From the NCBI GenBank assembly GCA_017554335.1, contig JAFZIO010000048.1:1-55117 (forward strand): DNA of 55,117 nt, given 5' to 3'. Shown here piece after piece: positions 3,194 to 48,872 of this stretch. Position 1 is the stretch's first letter. The number at the start of each line of letters is the position of its first letter. The position numbers and the translations under genes are program-made. The stretch comes from Bacteroidales bacterium. Its GTDB lineage: Bacteria; Bacteroidota; Bacteroidia; Bacteroidales; UBA932. The notes below the pieces were generated by a model. It made no database searches. It worked only from the letters and a program-made list of their open reading frames with translations, and had not been told where the DNA came from.

Positions 3194-5308
3194 ATGAAAC
3201 GTTTATTTATCGCACTTGCCAGCGCAATGCTGCTATTGCCCGCCACCCTCAGGGCCGATGAAGGCATGTGGCTCCTGCCCCTGCTCGAGAAGATGAATGC
3301 CGACGCCATGAAGAATCTCGGCGCCCGCCTCACCCCGGAGCAGATTTACAGCATCAACAACTCCTCCATCAAAGACGCCATCGTGCAGTTCGGCGGCGGC
3401 TGTACCGGAGAAATAGTATCCGGCAGCGGCCTGCTGCTTACCAACCATCATTGCGGATACGGCAGCATCCAGTCCCTCTCGACCACCGAGCACAACTATC
3501 TGGAAGACGGCTATTGGGCCAAGTCCAGGGCGGAGGAACTTCCCGTCCCCGGCCTCACCGTGCGCTTCCTGCAGAGCATGACTGACGTTACCGACGCCCT
3601 TGCTTCCGGCGCCAGCCGCCGCGAGCTCATCAGCGAGGCGGAGAAGGCCAACCCCCACTGCCAGGTGCGTATAGTGAGTTTCTACAACGAGAACGTACAG
3701 TACCTCATCGTTTCCAAGGTATACCGCGACGTGCGTTTCGTGGGCGCTCCGCCGGCATCTTCCGGTAAGTTCGGCGGCGACACCGACAACTGGATGTGGC
3801 CCCGTCACACTTGCGACTTCTCCTGCTTCCGCGTATATGCCGGCCCCGACAACGAGCCTGCTGACTATTCCCAGGAGAACGTGCCCATGGTGCCCCGCCA
3901 GTTCCTCGGCGTCTCTCTCAAGGGCGTGCACGAGGGCGACTTTGCCATGATCATGGGTTACCCCGGCAGCACCCAGCGTTTCCAGACAGCCGCCCAGCTG
4001 GAGGACATGCTCGAGACCAACAATATCCGCATCGCCGCCCGCGGAGTCCGTCAGGACGTGCTCTGGAAGGCCATGCGTGCAGATGAGAAAGTGTCCCTGC
4101 AGTACGCCAGCAAGTACTCCGGCTCCTCCAACGGCTGGAAGAAGTGGATAGGCATGAAGCAGGCTTTCGAGGCCCTTCAGATTATCCCCCGCGAGAAGCA
4201 GAAGGAGCAGGAGCTCCAGGAGTGGATCAAAGAAGACGCCGGACGCGTTGAGGCTTACGGCGGTGCTATCGACAAGATTGCCGAGTGCGTAGAGGAGGCT
4301 TCCGCTCCCAACAAGGCCGGCACCCTCCTGCAGGAGAGCCTCGGCCGCATCGAGCTGGTCAACTTCGCCCTCTCCATGAACCGCAACCGTCAGGGCATGC
4401 GCGGCGGCCCCGTGCCTCCCCAGGGCCAGGCTCCCGAAATGAGTGAGGAAGAGGCCATCAACGCCATGAAGAAGTTCCTCGCCAGGCAGTACAAGGACTA
4501 CGACGCCAAGGTCGACCATGACGTCGCAATCGCCCTCATAGACTTCTACAAGGCCAATGTTGCTCCGGAGGACGCCATCTCCATCGGCGGCAAGAGCATC
4601 CTGAAGATCGATACCCGCAAGTACGTGGACGACCTATTCAAGAAGAGCGTCTTCGTGTCCGAAGAGAAGCTGAACGCCAAGCCCCTGAACGCCAAAGTTC
4701 TGGCCGCCGATCCTGCCGTACAGCTGGGAGACGCCATTATGACTGCCATGATGCCCAAGCGCGAAGCGGTTATGGCCCCCCGTATAAAGATGGCAGAGGC
4801 CACCAAGGCTTACGCCGCCAGCCTGCTGGAGTGGAAGAAGGGCGAGCCGTCCTACCCGGACGCCAACAGCACCTGCCGCTTAACTTACGGTACCGTAAAG
4901 AGTTACGAACCTAAGGACGGCGTGCTCTATAAGTATTACACCACCCTGAAGGGTGTGATGGAGAAGGAAGATCCCGACAACTACGAGTTCCGCGTGCCCG
5001 CACGTCTTAAGGAAATCTATGAAACCAAGGACTACGGCCAGTACGCCAATGAGAACGGCGAACTCGTGGCCTGCTTCCTCACCAACCTGGACATCACCGG
5101 CGGCAACTCCGGCAGCCCTGTCATGGACGCCGACGGCAACCTCATCGGTCTTGCCTTCGACGGCAACTGGGAGAGCATGAGTTCCGACGTCATGTTCGAG
5201 CCTGACCTCCAGCGCTGCATCTGCGTAGACATACGTTACGTGCTGCTGATGATGGATAAGTTCGGCGGCGCCGGCTACCTGCTCGACGAAATGAACATCG
5301 TGCGCTAA
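3194..5308 (+). CDS. S46-family dipeptidyl-peptidase, DPP7-like
   Basis: Periplasmic serine exopeptidase releasing dipeptides from peptide N-termini, used by Bacteroidota for peptide nutrition. It has 704 residues, normal for S46. Residues 1-21 are a signal peptide, and the mature protein begins DEGMWLLPLLEKM, a family hallmark. The catalytic His is in TNHHCGYG (H85), the Asp probably in WPRHTCDFS, and the Ser in TGGNSGSPV (S639). The residue 18 after the Ser is Gly (FDGNW). In DPP11 an Arg at that place gives Asp/Glu specificity, so Gly suggests DPP7-like preference for hydrophobic P1; this is inference. The stop overlaps the mrp start in TAATG, implying translational coupling. Confidence 0.93.
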   Translation: MKRLFIALASAMLLLPATLRADEGMWLLPLLEKMNADAMKNLGARLTPEQIYSINNSSIKDAIVQFGGGCTGEIVSGSGLLLTNHHCGYGSIQSLSTTEHNYLEDGYWAKSRAEELPVPGLTVRFLQSMTDVTDALASGASRRELISEAEKANPHCQVRIVSFYNENVQYLIVSKVYRDVRFVGAPPASSGKFGGDTDNWMWPRHTCDFSCFRVYAGPDNEPADYSQENVPMVPRQFLGVSLKGVHEGDFAMIMGYPGSTQRFQTAAQLEDMLETNNIRIAARGVRQDVLWKAMRADEKVSLQYASKYSGSSNGWKKWIGMKQAFEALQIIPREKQKEQELQEWIKEDAGRVEAYGGAIDKIAECVEEASAPNKAGTLLQESLGRIELVNFALSMNRNRQGMRGGPVPPQGQAPEMSEEEAINAMKKFLARQYKDYDAKVDHDVAIALIDFYKANVAPEDAISIGGKSILKIDTRKYVDDLFKKSVFVSEEKLNAKPLNAKVLAADPAVQLGDAIMTAMMPKREAVMAPRIKMAEATKAYAASLLEWKKGEPSYPDANSTCRLTYGTVKSYEPKDGVLYKYYTTLKGVMEKEDPDNYEFRVPARLKEIYETKDYGQYANENGELVACFLTNLDITGGNSGSPVMDADGNLIGLAFDGNWESMSSDVMFEPDLQRCICVDIRYVLLMMDKFGGAGYLLDEMNIVR

Positions 5309-6444
5309 TGACTGAAAAAGAGATACTTGCGTTATTGCGGGACGTCCGCCATCCGGGCAAGGGCGACAAGGATATCGTGGAGCTTGGAATGGTCCAGAAG
5401 GTTACGGTCGAAGAAGTTCTGGAGCGAAGCGACGAGGGGGGTGTCGGGGGGAACGCCCCCCGTCCCCTGGGGGTGCAGGGGGATAGTAGTCCGACAGCGT
5501 CAGCTGTCGTGACCCTGGCGTTTCCCAAGCGCCGCGACCCTTTGGCTGAATATCTGATTGGCGCCACTCGCGCAGCACTTATCCGCGGCGGCGTCAAGGA
5601 CCCGAAGGTGGAGACGGTGGTGCTGGAGGAGGCGGCTCCCAAGAAGAAGGGGATGGAGTTCGACACTGAGTGCCTGCGGAACGTACGCCACATAGTGGGC
5701 GTGGCCTCCGGAAAGGGAGGCGTGGGCAAATCCACCGTAGCCGTCAATCTGGCGTGCGCCCTCGCTCGCCTGGGTTACAAAGTGGGACTGGCCGACGCCG
5801 ACGTGTACGGCCCTTCCGTGCCGCTGATGACGGGAACTGAAGGCTCCCAGCCGATGGCGGAGGAGGTCGACGGGCGTGAACTCATCGTTCCGCTGGAGAA
5901 GTACGGCGTCAAGTGGATGAGTATCGGCTACTTCGCCGAACGCGGGCAGGCGCTTATCTGGCGCGGCCCCATGGCGACGAACGCCCTTAAGCAGATGATT
6001 CTGCAGGTGAAGTGGGGGACGCTGGACTTCCTGCTGGTGGATATGCCTCCGGGAACGGGGGACATCCATATCAGCCTGATGCAGGAGGTGCCGGTTGAGG
6101 GTGCGATTATCGTGACGACGCCGCAGGAGGTGGCGCTGGCGGATGTTGAGAAGGGGGCGGCGATGTTCCGCAACCCCGGCATCAACCGGCCCATTTTCGG
6201 CATCGTGGAGAATATGGCGTGGTTTACGCCGGCGGAGCATCCGGACGAGAAGTATTACATTTTCGGACGCGACGGTGGTGCCCGCATGGCGGAGGACCTC
6301 GGCATCGAGCTCCTCGGGCGTATTCCGCTGGTGCAGAGCATCTGCGAGAGCGGTGACGCCGGCGAGCCCGCCGCCCTCGGCACCCGTCCCGACGCCGCTG
6401 CCTTCCTCGACCTCGCCGCCCGCCTCGCCGAAAAACTTGGATGA
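5308..6444 (+). CDS. mrp: Mrp/NBP35-family ATP-binding iron-sulfur carrier with an in-frame repeat insertion
   Basis: Cytosolic P-loop ATPase proposed to carry and deliver Fe-S clusters. It has 378 residues. The N-terminal MIP18 (DUF59) domain spans about 1-95 and the deviant Walker A ASGKGGVGKSTVAVNLA begins near residue 132. VDMPPGTGD and VTTPQEVALADV follow. The C-terminal CxxC of E. coli Mrp is absent, with ENMAWFTPAE in its place. About 28 residues (roughly 5422-5505) interrupt the MIP18 domain between VTVEEVL and VVTLAFPKRRDPL. Their DNA includes a 43-bp repeat found again inside ksgA. The reading frame is intact, so the protein is probably functional with an added loop. The start overlaps the peptidase stop (TAATG). 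Confidence 0.92.
   Translation: MTEKEILALLRDVRHPGKGDKDIVELGMVQKVTVEEVLERSDEGGVGGNAPRPLGVQGDSSPTASAVVTLAFPKRRDPLAEYLIGATRAALIRGGVKDPKVETVVLEEAAPKKKGMEFDTECLRNVRHIVGVASGKGGVGKSTVAVNLACALARLGYKVGLADADVYGPSVPLMTGTEGSQPMAEEVDGRELIVPLEKYGVKWMSIGYFAERGQALIWRGPMATNALKQMILQVKWGTLDFLLVDMPPGTGDIHISLMQEVPVEGAIIVTTPQEVALADVEKGAAMFRNPGINRPIFGIVENMAWFTPAEHPDEKYYIFGRDGGARMAEDLGIELLGRIPLVQSICESGDAGEPAALGTRPDAAAFLDLAARLAEKLG
5421..5505 (+). repeat. G+C-rich palindromic repeat, copy 1, inside mrp
   Basis: Positions 5421-5463 are identical to 6706-6748 in ksgA. The core is a GGGGGG-AACG-CCCCCC hairpin followed by CCCCTGGGGG. Here the repeat's first base is codon position 3, giving ERSDEGGVGGNAPRPLG. The right part differs from the ksgA copy and contains a small inverted repeat, CGACAG/CTGTCG. 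The insert preserves the mrp frame. Confidence 0.85.
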
Positions 6445-6597
6445 CCGTCCGACTGTCGCTCTCCGGGGCTGCCACCGGAGAGAACTTCGCGCTACGCGCT
6501 CATCCCTCCCAACCTGGCGGTTGGGCCCCTCCCTCTAACGTGTCCGAGGGTGGACACGGTTCCTCCGGTGGCAGCCCCGGAAAGCTGGTCAGACGGT
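6444..6597. repeat. 154-bp nested palindromic element between mrp and ksgA
   Basis: Outer arms 6444-6453 and 6588-6597 pair at 9 of 10 bases. An 18-bp perfect inverted repeat follows (6462-6479 with 6564-6581, arm TCCGGGGCTGCCACCGGA). Inside are two more hairpins: CCCAACC-TGGC-GGTTGGG at 6508-6525 and GTGTCC-6 nt-GGACAC at 6540-6557. It fills almost the whole gap between the two genes. It resembles REP- or MITE-like extragenic elements; no transposase is nearby. Confidence 0.8.
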
Positions 6598-6608
6598 AAT
6601 TATTGTAT

Positions 6609-7508
6609 ATGGAAGTAAGAGCTAAAAAAGCATTAGGGCAACATTTCTTAACAGATCAATCGATTGCAAAGCGAATTGTCGACACGCTTGGTAATGGCAA
6701 TTTAGGGAGCGAAGCGACGAGGGGGGTGTCGGGGGGAACGCCCCCCGTGCCCCTAGGGGCAGCAGCGGAGCTGCGGGGGTTGGAAGCCGCAGGCGGCGGG
6801 ACGACTTGTCGGACCGACGTCCTGGAAATCGGGCCTGGTATGGGAGTATTAACTCAATACCTGCTGCAGCGGGACGACATAGACCTGAAGGCAGTAGAGC
6901 TGGACGGCGAGTCGGTCGAGTACCTGCTGACGCACTTCCCCGGCATGCAGGGCCGCCTGCTGCAGGCGGACTACCTGCGCCTGGACATGAACCGCGTGTT
7001 CAATGGCCCCTACCGCATAATCGGCAACTTCCCCTACAACATCTCCTCGCAAATCTTCTTCAAGATCCTGGACGATAAGGACCGCATCCCGGAGGTTGTC
7101 TGTATGATACAAAAGGAGGTGGCGGAACGCATCGCCGAAAAGCCCGGGAGCAAGACCTACGGCATCCTGAGCGTGCTGCTGCAAGCCTGGTACGACATCG
7201 AATACTGCTTCACCGTGGGCCCGGGAGCCTTTGCTCCGCCGCCCAAGGTGCAGTCGGCCGTAATCCGCCTTACCCGCAACGGCCGCACAGAGCTCGGCTG
7301 CGACGAGAAGCTCTTCAAGCAAGTGGTCAAGACGGCATTCAACCAGAGACGCAAGACGCTGAGGAACGCCCTCAAGCCGCTGCTGAAAGACAAATTGACA
7401 GACGGTTCTGTCATGTTGAGCGACAGCGAAACATCTATTCTGGATCTGCGGGCCGAACGCCTGAGCGTGGAAGACTTCATCCGGCTGACACAGGCTATCG
7501 CAGAATAA
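6609..7508 (+). CDS. rsmA: 16S rRNA (adenine1518/1519-N6)-dimethyltransferase with an in-frame repeat insertion
   Basis: KsgA/RsmA dimethylates two adjacent adenines near the 3' end of 16S rRNA during small-subunit maturation. It has 299 residues. The N-terminal KKALGQHFLTDQSIAKRIV is the family signature. The SAM-binding motif is VLEIGPGMGVLTQ and the target-binding motif is IGNFPYNISSQI. The start is the ATG at 6609; an upstream in-frame TTG at 6603 is less likely. Between LGNGNLG and DVLEIGPG lies an insert of about 36 residues (6708-6815) that other KsgA proteins lack. It is encoded by the same 43-bp repeat as in mrp, read in another frame (SEATRGVSGGTPPVPLG). It sits before the SAM motif I, and both flanking motifs are intact. 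Confidence 0.94.
   Translation: MEVRAKKALGQHFLTDQSIAKRIVDTLGNGNLGSEATRGVSGGTPPVPLGAAAELRGLEAAGGGTTCRTDVLEIGPGMGVLTQYLLQRDDIDLKAVELDGESVEYLLTHFPGMQGRLLQADYLRLDMNRVFNGPYRIIGNFPYNISSQIFFKILDDKDRIPEVVCMIQKEVAERIAEKPGSKTYGILSVLLQAWYDIEYCFTVGPGAFAPPPKVQSAVIRLTRNGRTELGCDEKLFKQVVKTAFNQRRKTLRNALKPLLKDKLTDGSVMLSDSETSILDLRAERLSVEDFIRLTQAIAE
6706..6815 (+). repeat. G+C-rich palindromic repeat, copy 2, inside ksgA
   Basis: Positions 6706-6748 are identical to 5421-5463 in mrp. The copy continues with GCCCCTAGGGGCAGCAGCGG and GAGCTGCGGGGG, which has a close inverted relative at 40123-40191. The repeat's first base is codon position 2 here but position 3 in mrp. The insert is 36 codons and keeps the ksgA frame open. 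Confidence 0.85.
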
Positions 7509-7513
7509 AAAGA

Positions 7514-7556
7514 CAAGAGGCTGACCGAAAACCAATAAAAAACGGTCAGCCTCTTG
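7514..7556. terminator. Bidirectional hairpin terminator between ksgA and the convergent barrel gene
   Basis: A 14-bp perfect stem (CAAGAGGCTGACCG with CGGTCAGCCTCTTG) with a 15-nt A-rich loop sits between two convergent gene ends. The flanks are A/T-rich but have no long T run, so the call rests on position and stem strength. Confidence 0.7.
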
Positions 7557-7580
7557 GCAAAAATAAAGTGTGTGGATAAA

Positions 7581-8231
7581 TCAGAATCTGTAGCCCGCTC
7601 CGAACATAAGACCGGTTGAAGCACAGCTGATATTCATCTCGGCAAGGCCGTAAAAATGGCCTTTGCCAAAGTTAATACCTATAGGTGTAAGGTAAGGTGT
7701 GGGTATAAACAGGCTAAAGTTGCCGATTACCAGGCATCCCAGTCCGAAGGAGGAATACAGGCGCCAGTTGTCGCGGCGCATCCATTTCCAGCGGAAATCC
7801 ACCATTGGAGTATACATGGTGCCGGAATACTGTGTGCTGGATGATTGTACGCCCGCTTCATAATCAATCTCTCTTTGGATATCCAGCAGATTGCCATCAT
7901 CATCCTTTATTTCTATTTCGTGCATGAGGTAGTTGTCCCTTCTGTAAATAGCACCGCAGGCATTGATAATCACATTGAAGTCCCAGCGCTCATTCATGGC
8001 ATAGGTATAGCCGATATTCAGACTGGGTATAAAGAGCCGCGTATCCTTAAAACCACGAGTCATTTGCGCGTAACTGTTGCTTGTACTGAGCAGCAGCGAC
8101 TGCGCGGGCGGAACTCCGGTAGAAATTTCTATGGAGTGCCTGTGTTCGGGATCAAAGTGCTGGGCCCGTGCAGGCGTGCTTAAAAGCAGCGCCGCAAGCG
8201 GCAAAACAACTAATTCAAACAGCTTTTTCAT
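7581..8231 (-). CDS. Predicted outer-membrane beta-barrel protein, exact family not recognised
   Basis: A 216-residue protein with an N-terminal signal peptide (MKKLFELVVLPLAALLLS, cleavage near ARAQ). The body has alternating polar/aromatic strands (WDFNVIINACGAIYRR, RLYSSFGLGCLVIGNFSLF) and ends GLMFGAGYRF, with a C-terminal aromatic residue typical of barrels. An 8-strand barrel of the OmpA-like/PorT-like kind would fit this length. Its ATG overlaps the stop of the upstream VWA lipoprotein gene by 4 bp (ATGA), so the two are very likely translated together. The substrate or partner is unknown. Confidence 0.75.
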   Translation of the reverse strand: MKKLFELVVLPLAALLLSTPARAQHFDPEHRHSIEISTGVPPAQSLLLSTSNSYAQMTRGFKDTRLFIPSLNIGYTYAMNERWDFNVIINACGAIYRRDNYLMHEIEIKDDDGNLLDIQREIDYEAGVQSSSTQYSGTMYTPMVDFRWKWMRRDNWRLYSSFGLGCLVIGNFSLFIPTPYLTPIGINFGKGHFYGLAEMNISCASTGLMFGAGYRF

Positions 8232-40579: not shown

Positions 40580-40714
40580 TTCTGACAGGTTTTGCTGGTT
40601 TTTCTGTCAGAAAAGGTGGAAATTTCTTCATTCTGACAGGTTTTTTGCATTTTTCTGTCAGAAAAGGCGGAAAAGGGAACGATCTGACAACTTTTCGCGA
40701 ATAATCTGTCAGAA
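40580..40714. repeat. Array of three 33-bp stem-loops at a 51-bp period
   Basis: Units lie at 40580-40612, 40631-40663 and 40682-40714. The first two have arms TTCTGACAG and CTGTCAGAA (9 bp perfect). The third has ATCTGACAA on the left and the same right arm. The 18-bp spacers begin AAGG(T/C)GGAAA. All units are exactly 33 bp with a T-rich loop. Confidence 0.88.
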
Positions 40715-40794
40715 ATGGCGAGAATGCCGTAATGATGGATGAAAATTTATAAATTTACGCCGGGAAACTGTTACCAATTGAGCGCAGTGGTACA

Positions 40795-44106: not shown

Positions 44107-44154
44107 AATTTTAGGTTAGAATTGCAAGCGCCCCGCGTCGAGAGATGCGGGGTG
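44107..44154 (+). repeat. 22-bp direct repeat plus G+C hairpin, left copy
   Basis: The first 22 bp (44107-44128, AATTTTAGGTTAGAATTGCA then AG) are identical to 48795-48816. A hairpin with CCCCGC/GCGGGG arms follows (44131-44136 with 44147-44152). It may be the terminator for the cyclophilin gene, but the conserved 22 bp upstream is not explained by that. Confidence 0.75.
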
Positions 44155-44227
44155 TGTTGTTCGCACGATGCCCACGAGATACTTGCTCTCGGTCAATGTG
44201 GAATGTAATCAAGTTGCGAAAAAAGCG

Positions 44228-48794: not shown

Positions 48795-48842
48795 AATTTT
48801 AGGTTAGAATTGCAAGTTGCCCGCGCTGTGAAGCGCGGGCAA
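48795..48842 (+). repeat. 22-bp direct repeat plus G+C hairpin, right copy
   Basis: 48795-48816 is identical to 44107-44128. The hairpin that follows has an 11-bp perfect stem (TTGCCCGCGCT with AGCGCGGGCAA) and a GTGA loop, then a T-rich stretch. It lies between the large lipoprotein gene and bcp. Confidence 0.8.
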
Positions 48843-48872
48843 TATTGTTTAAGGTATTCCCAATAAAGTTAC

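Follow-up and report, generated by a model that had tools for sequence, protein, structure and literature searches.

The contig JAFZIO010000048.1 of a Bacteroidales bacterium (GTDB UBA932, assembly GCA_017554335.1) was analysed over its whole length of 55,117 nucleotides, in the following referred to as the window. Two of its conserved genes, mrp and ksgA, are interrupted in frame by copies of a short palindromic repeat, which belong to a wider family that we here call element A. Palindromic inserts that remain in frame are best known from Rickettsia. On balance, we favour the view of A as a compact mobile module, rich in hairpins, that belongs to one genus of uncultured gut Bacteroidales and inserts via a fold-back, single-stranded intermediate; an enzyme acting in trans probably mobilises it. 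Copies lie at scattered sites, orthologues without the insert exist, 65 bases are identical between the copies in mrp and in a penicillin-binding protein gene, and the orientation of A next to tRNA genes follows a rule. Therefore, to judge from these sequence comparisons, A appears to be a mobile element. In addition, many copies are followed on their 3' side by an inverted copy of the neighbouring target sequence.

Element A in the window and in related genomes

The 43 bp at positions 5421-5463 and 6706-6748 of the window are identical, and the flanking base differs at each end. An earlier note on this DNA had pointed to this repeat and to its being read in two frames, which is indeed the case (ERSDEGGVGGNAPRPLG in Mrp, SEATRGVSGGTPPVPLG in KsgA). 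Its statement that both inserts are in frame likewise agrees with the comparison to relatives, where Mrp exceeds that of loci L006 and L007 by 31 codons, and KsgA that of L012 by 37 (36 additional alignment columns relative to genome G016). The gene mrp (5308..6444, + strand, from the open reading frame list) encodes an ApbC/NUBPL-type iron-sulfur carrier ATPase with a Pfam ParA/NUBPL match (PF10609) at residues 125-369, and carries its A copy near the N-terminus. In the case of ksgA (6609..7508, + strand, open reading frame from the conserved ATG at 6609), a 16S rRNA adenine dimethyltransferase (Pfam RrnaAD, PF00398), the copy is located between helix 1 and the LEIGPG motif. This position falls between two aligned segments that are just four residues apart in PDB chain 3tqs_A, which would fit a loop.

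Two further statements of the earlier note stood in part. It had treated the 43-mer as the unit; the identity is real, while the 43-mer turned out to be the 5' portion of a longer, modular element. It had also described a strong G/C hairpin as the core. This hairpin is present, the window copies not folding clearly more stably than dinucleotide shuffles. According to the family alignment, the mrp copy is full length on the + strand, from GGA to ATAGTAG (5421..5489; model match 5418-5489, E 1.4e-15). Its 43-bp stretch (5421..5463), delimited by sequence comparison, consists of the hp1 module with the mini-hairpin GCGAAGC (5424..5430) and the hairpin hp3, CGGGGGG-AACG-CCCCCCG (5445..5462). The copy then runs on into the usual 3' module of the family, CCCCTGGGGGTGCAGGGGGATAGTAG, made up of hp4, CCCCTGGGGGTGCAGGGGG (5464..5482), which is the most conserved part of the family, and the 3' tag ATAGTAG (5483..5489). 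The ksgA copy (6706..6786, + strand, 3' limit approximate) has a variant 3' part with an extra mini-hairpin, CAGCGGAGCTG, and gives a weak model match (6703-6765, E 0.0015); it shows an indel relative to hp4, and the common 43-mer stands in a different phase from that in mrp. A scan of positions 5200-7600 yielded one promoter-like site (0.6 expected) and one terminator-like site (1.9 expected).

Taken as a family, A measures about 57-95 bp. Its modules follow in the order GGA-hp1-GAC, a G-rich stretch, an optional hp2, hp3, the near-constant hp4 and mostly ATARTAG; short forms lack hp1 and start near GGCAGGG. The module hp1 occurs in 34 distinct forms among 61 copies, mostly still self-complementary. 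Forms longer than 7 nt (n=28) have on average 3.8 pairs, compared to 1.6 with the inner letters shuffled, the outer G and C being fixed by the search pattern in real and shuffled forms alike and a few forms being mis-cut. These variable mini-hairpins may represent a recognition structure. For the remainder, RNAalifold predicted hp3 and hp4. At the 5' end, GAC precedes a variable base in 57 of the 61 hp1 copies, corresponding to NGTC on the opposite strand (CGTC in 14). The 3' end is TAG in 50 of 91 copies and GTAG in 28, and 41 of the 91 lack a terminal TAG. In a 36-copy alignment, the two ends, GGA-hp1-GAC and ATARTAG, do not form a pair of terminal inverted repeats. No target-site duplication was evident at the base-level empty sites of purL and mrp, where the 5' junctions are inexact, and no protein-coding capacity was seen within A itself. 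An Rfam search of eight loci (25,181 bases) returned solely tRNAs above the gathering score and no family matching A.

The genome to which the window belongs is a 2.35-Mb assembly of 75 contigs including the window, 87.6% complete. Across it, a 30-mer from within the 43-mer was found at three places without mismatch and at five with up to three mismatches, compared to no match for the reversed pattern. A covariance model of A built from 36 copies (cut-off E 0.01) gave 13 matches in this genome and matches in 24 of 61 same-genus genomes, the weakest of which are possibly due to chance. The absence of the repeat elsewhere, an outcome that the earlier note had considered, is thus excluded. The 3' module alone (up to two mismatches) was present in 9 of 37 genomes of the genus, and none of 24 genomes from other families of the order contained it. 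Neither an exact 22-mer search of viral contigs nor a blastn search of plasmids and phages with a 70-bp copy gave a match, in both of which diverged copies could escape. Judged by Mrp, the closest public relatives belong to uncultured Bacteroidales, with rumen or other gut samples as the source of many; the more distant ones include records of Candidatus Cryptobacteroides. The copies studied in the following (n=91, of which 11 come from the genome of the window) comprise 90 distinct places with the hp4 module at up to three mismatches and the variant ksgA copy of the window; they are a subset of the model matches and not a census.

To describe copies within genes, G016 served as reference genome, as a member of the same genus with a single A copy (2.346 of 2.375 Mb used). 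One and the same reference gene was found on both sides in a single frame for 34 copies, and in no case did the homology lie in two frames. Leaving out L130, the copy of G016 itself, 33 of the 91 copies are located in conserved genes; by this test, copies in unconserved genes are indistinguishable from intergenic ones. An open frame passes through the element in 32 of these 33, and none is frame-shifted. In the case of L203, which is in frame, stop codons lie within 15 codons on either side, and the gene may be damaged. Relative to hp4, all six reading phases are used among the 32 assignable copies, two of them dominating (14 and 9 copies), and the peptides differ. Therefore, the nucleic acid and not a peptide is conserved, as the earlier note had proposed, and peptide-level selection was ruled out by the phase differing among copies. 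The number of open frames per copy (4.2 of 6) is close to that of base shuffles (3.8 of 6), a small gap that is no demonstration of selection for open frames. Altogether, the matches in 24 genomes, the open frames and the six phases bear out the idea that this lineage has a family of small palindromic elements which coding sequences tolerate.

Host genes assigned by Pfam were mrp, ksgA, exonuclease VII large subunit, penicillin-binding protein, alpha-2-macroglobulin, uppP/BacA, miaA (IPP transferase), queH, YgiQ-type radical SAM, ferredoxin-type protein, Mur ligase, methyltransferase, class III aminotransferase, PmbA/TldD and purL; hemW, prmC, argC and ispE were read from alignments and weaker Pfam matches. 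Several gene copies represent one gene across at least two genomes, leaving about twenty independent sites. A separate observation concerns locus L204 of genome G023, where three A copies stand in a row on the reverse strand (about 4084-4320) within one gene whose open frame spans 281 codons; this gene corresponds to QueH in related genomes (L136, L218).

Many relatives lack the inserts. In Mrp, the insert is absent from 78 of the 79 relatives that cover the site (L014, which does not cover it, was excluded), and L017 carries a different insert at the same turn. Conservation of the same insert among relatives, which the earlier note had held possible, is thereby excluded for mrp. The gene ksgA was matched in 34 of 80 loci. 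Its loop contains A in L006, L007, L023 and L033, a second repeat family, here called B, in either orientation in others (e.g. L008-L011, L018, L025), and no insert in L012, L013, L016, L019 and more. The ksgA loop is an insertion hot spot. In purL of L224, both sides of the insert align with all nine insert-free relatives, three of which are 95-96% identical over the 98-residue query. Regarding uppP, G000, G004, G027, G033, G071 and G072 all show a break in the match at one and the same residue (query position about 31-35) together with longer frames (304-320 codons), which points to a further insertion hot spot.

The 3' junction of element A

Hairpins beside A were scored as stems of at least 10 within 110 bases past the element, and five copies near sequence ends were omitted. 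Such a long hairpin follows the 3' end of A in 51 of 86 copies; on the 5' side it was seen in a single one of the 86, and in control windows in about 9 of 645 (1.4%). In gene copies with a stem of at least 9 (n=16, including L193 and L207, which are unconfirmed as gene copies by the reference-gene test), 98% of the residues of the far arm align to the empty reference, compared to 38% of those of the near arm; this latter figure is inflated by L023, L218 and L224, in which near-arm residues were matched to the reference by the aligner. For purL, native sequence found in all nine relatives is repeated in inverted form by the near arm (17 nt, one mismatch), which is itself absent from all nine. 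The far arm is native gene or tRNA sequence and the near arm a new inverted copy of it.

The same pattern was seen beside tRNA genes. Within 150 nt of a tRNA gene lie 20 copies, a few of which are common to related genomes or are neighbours within one array. The tRNA always lies 3' of A and is encoded on the other strand, and no copy has a tRNA within this distance on its 5' side. Read in the direction of the tRNA, the gene is followed by its terminator hairpin, the T-tract, the inverted tRNA-end copy, in many cases an extra mini-hairpin, and reversed A. By script, the inverted tRNA-end copy was detected in 19 of the 20 (5-18 nt, at most one mismatch), the shortest ones (5-6 nt) being weak when taken alone. 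The tRNAs of G016 could be compared for 17 of the 20; 16 have no inverted end, and the one that has it is next to the A copy of G016 itself. Many of these G016 tRNAs are other loci or paralogues and thus imperfect empty sites.

At one site of a YgiQ-type radical SAM gene, A is present in both L147 (G023) and L223 (G015). Here the flanks differ, yet in either case the near arm corresponds to the flank beside it, which points to insertions that occurred separately or to arms that evolve in concert. In the open-licence literature, we found no account of such Bacteroidales elements or of an inverted copy of the target flank.

Possible route of insertion and rival explanations

The inverted flank copy points to the synthesis of new DNA, templated by the target strand next to the insertion point. 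In the fold-back reading favoured here, which is the simplest picture, a native 3' end, located on the opposite strand to A, would, in a single-stranded intermediate, fold back at a small hairpin, which would be a terminator or a short chance hairpin within a gene. The folded end would then be extended by copying itself, and synthesis would proceed across A by a switch onto the element. Insertions that disrupt needed genes would be lost, so that the in-frame ones remain. More tentatively, this could amount to a new insertion route, in which an element joins its target after the target 3' end has copied itself, stamping an inverted copy of the landing site. Chance hairpins in genes and the terminators of tRNAs might then, with the same reserve, serve as landing sites, and the in-frame survivors might record insertion into essential proteins.

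Several observations weigh against this reading. The long 3' hairpin is lacking in 35 of the 86 copies, and among the confirmed gene copies (n=31) a stem of at least 10 is present in 13 and not in 18. Both window copies fall below the cut-off: mrp scores 7, from a 7-bp hairpin at 5492..5509 (+ strand) whose far arm enters native mrp codons, and ksgA scores 5, with no clear hairpin. Next to tRNA genes, L131 has no inverted copy. The alignment of empty sites at base level covered purL, mrp and ksgA. Regarding the fold of A itself, double changes affect just 2 of the 11 predicted pairs, both in hp3, and single window copies do not fold better than their dinucleotide shuffles (z -0.9 to -1.4). A clear link between A and a transposase or reverse transcriptase was seen neither in the genome of the window nor in the same-genus genomes. 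Finally, palindromes can also arise by replication errors, and fold-back priming needs no dedicated element.

The palindromes could also have a different origin. If A were a repetitive extragenic palindromic (REP)-type repeat moved by a REP-associated tyrosine transposase (RAYT, Y1 HUH), its TAG or GTAG tag and hairpin would be the recognition site, and the inverted flank would be that hairpin. The frequent TAG and GTAG ends counted above, often with hairpins immediately behind them, speak for this, and so do the two Y1_Tnp genes in the genome of the window. Of the 15 strongly A-positive genomes, 14 have Y1_Tnp, compared to 32 of 46 others, an association that is not significant (p 0.09) and depends on a boundary between strong and weak positives that we chose ourselves. 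Only 4 of 46 Y1 genes are located within 4 kb of A (1.3 expected), two of the four apparently being one locus, and Y1 genes show no clear proximity to A copies. The surroundings of the two Y1 genes of the window genome contained neither A nor B motifs, and the many copies without a terminal TAG do not fit this view, which we consider rather unlikely. Pre-existing palindromes, selected by A as hairpin targets in a fixed orientation, would explain the 20 copies behind tRNA terminators in a single orientation, as well as the near arms that are partly native at L147, L223 and L224. Terminator hairpins are used in such a manner by group IIC introns, as described in PMC3898094. However, the near arm is missing in the nine aligned purL relatives, and the inverted tRNA end is found at 0 of 16 G016 flanks compared to 19 of 20 that carry A, a contrast weakened by the non-orthologous tRNAs of G016. 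We regard this explanation as improbable.

The two remaining explanations find still less favour. Reverse transcriptases are able to prime themselves by snap-back, the structure of A is RNA-like, and the inverted tRNA copies start at the natural 3' end of the transcript, behind the terminator T-tract, all of which would suit target-primed reverse transcription of an A RNA. But RVT_1 gave no match in the window genome at its given completeness (diverged reverse transcriptases could be missed) and occurs in 3 of 15 strongly A-positive genomes compared to 16 of 46 others, nor did Rfam supply a family in the eight loci. Showing no association with A, a reverse transcriptase was rejected as driver, and this origin is very improbable. 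That the repeat is short and G/C-rich and that the records of Mrp relatives are mostly metagenome-assembled could raise the suspicion of an assembly or binning artefact. Yet A is found in 24 separate genomes in differing contexts, and since the frame is kept open in 32 of the 33 gene copies, misassembly has next to no likelihood.

Other repeats and comparison with known systems

Further repeats were observed. Between mrp and ksgA, at 6458-6585 of the window, lies a copy of family B with 23-bp inverted arms around GGGAGGGGCCC-hairpin-GGGAGGGATGAGCG. In relatives, B stands in frame within ksgA in either orientation, and its outer arms vary among copies while their complementarity is kept. The motif GAGCGAAGCGA has 33 occurrences in the window genome, compared to 2 for the reversed control (e.g. 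at L087, L088, L093, L094, L096, L098, L100, L101, L106, L107 and L109); among the copies inspected, family B accounts for most, and A and a third repeat for a smaller part. This third repeat, with a sequence close to TGTCATTCTGAGCGAAGCGAAGAATCT, is apparently intergenic at several places of the same genome (L089, L090, L091, L108, L115), and similar repeats presumably exist in other Bacteroidetes. Elsewhere in the window, two 55-nt repeats (44107-44161 and 48795-48849) are 76% identical, with a common 22-nt start, AATTTTAGGTTAGAATTGCAAG, followed by a G/C hairpin of differing sequence. At 40580-40724, three 43-nt repeats stand in tandem, spaced 51 nt apart, and the inverted repeats TTCTGACAG...CTGTCAGAA occur in each of them.

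In a lineage unrelated to Rickettsia, dozens of sites together with many related genomes and empty orthologues make the movement of in-frame palindromes testable. The one-sided inverted target copy is a fingerprint of insertion chemistry that can be searched for in other repeat families, and KsgA, Mrp and PurL with 30-40 extra residues are natural experiments on what essential enzymes tolerate.

In their effect on genes, the closest counterparts are the Rickettsia palindromic elements (RPE), which two papers describe as short palindromic repeats in frame within many unrelated genes and also intergenic, of about 150 bp and with an open reading frame for a conserved peptide (PMC10969869, PMC3733652). 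Like these, A is found in frame within about twenty different genes and mostly open. In contrast, it uses all six phases and keeps no single peptide, RPE being compared by description only, and the host lineage of RPE is unrelated to Bacteroidales. Moreover, a one-sided inverted target copy is unmentioned for RPE in the same portions of these sources (PMC10969869, PMC3733652). REPs within genes and CGTC repeats in Bacteroidetes have been recorded before (PMC3733652). With REP and REPIN elements (GTAG- or CGTC-tagged palindromes, RAYT), A shares variable stems with kept pairing, a non-autonomous character and, as it seems, tagged hairpins; it differs in being a chain of several hairpins with a degenerate tag and target-derived inverted arms, and no RAYT gene is clearly linked to it. 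REP repeats are mainly extragenic; for A, the corresponding count is 33 of 91 copies in conserved genes. Miniature inverted-repeat transposable elements are likewise small, non-autonomous, dispersed and sometimes in frame with genes (PMC10969869), whereas A has no terminal inverted repeats in the 36-copy alignment. Group IIC introns insert at DNA hairpins, for example at terminators (PMC3898094), reminiscent of the 20 tRNA-side copies in one orientation. However, A is far too small for an intron RNA, the eight loci have no Rfam match and the window genome has no RVT_1 match. As each known class has a defining feature that A lacks or may lack, we assign A to none of them and treat it as a variant of small palindromic mobile elements. 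Its nearest kin are RPE by effect, REP/RAYT by architecture and group IIC introns by choice of terminators.

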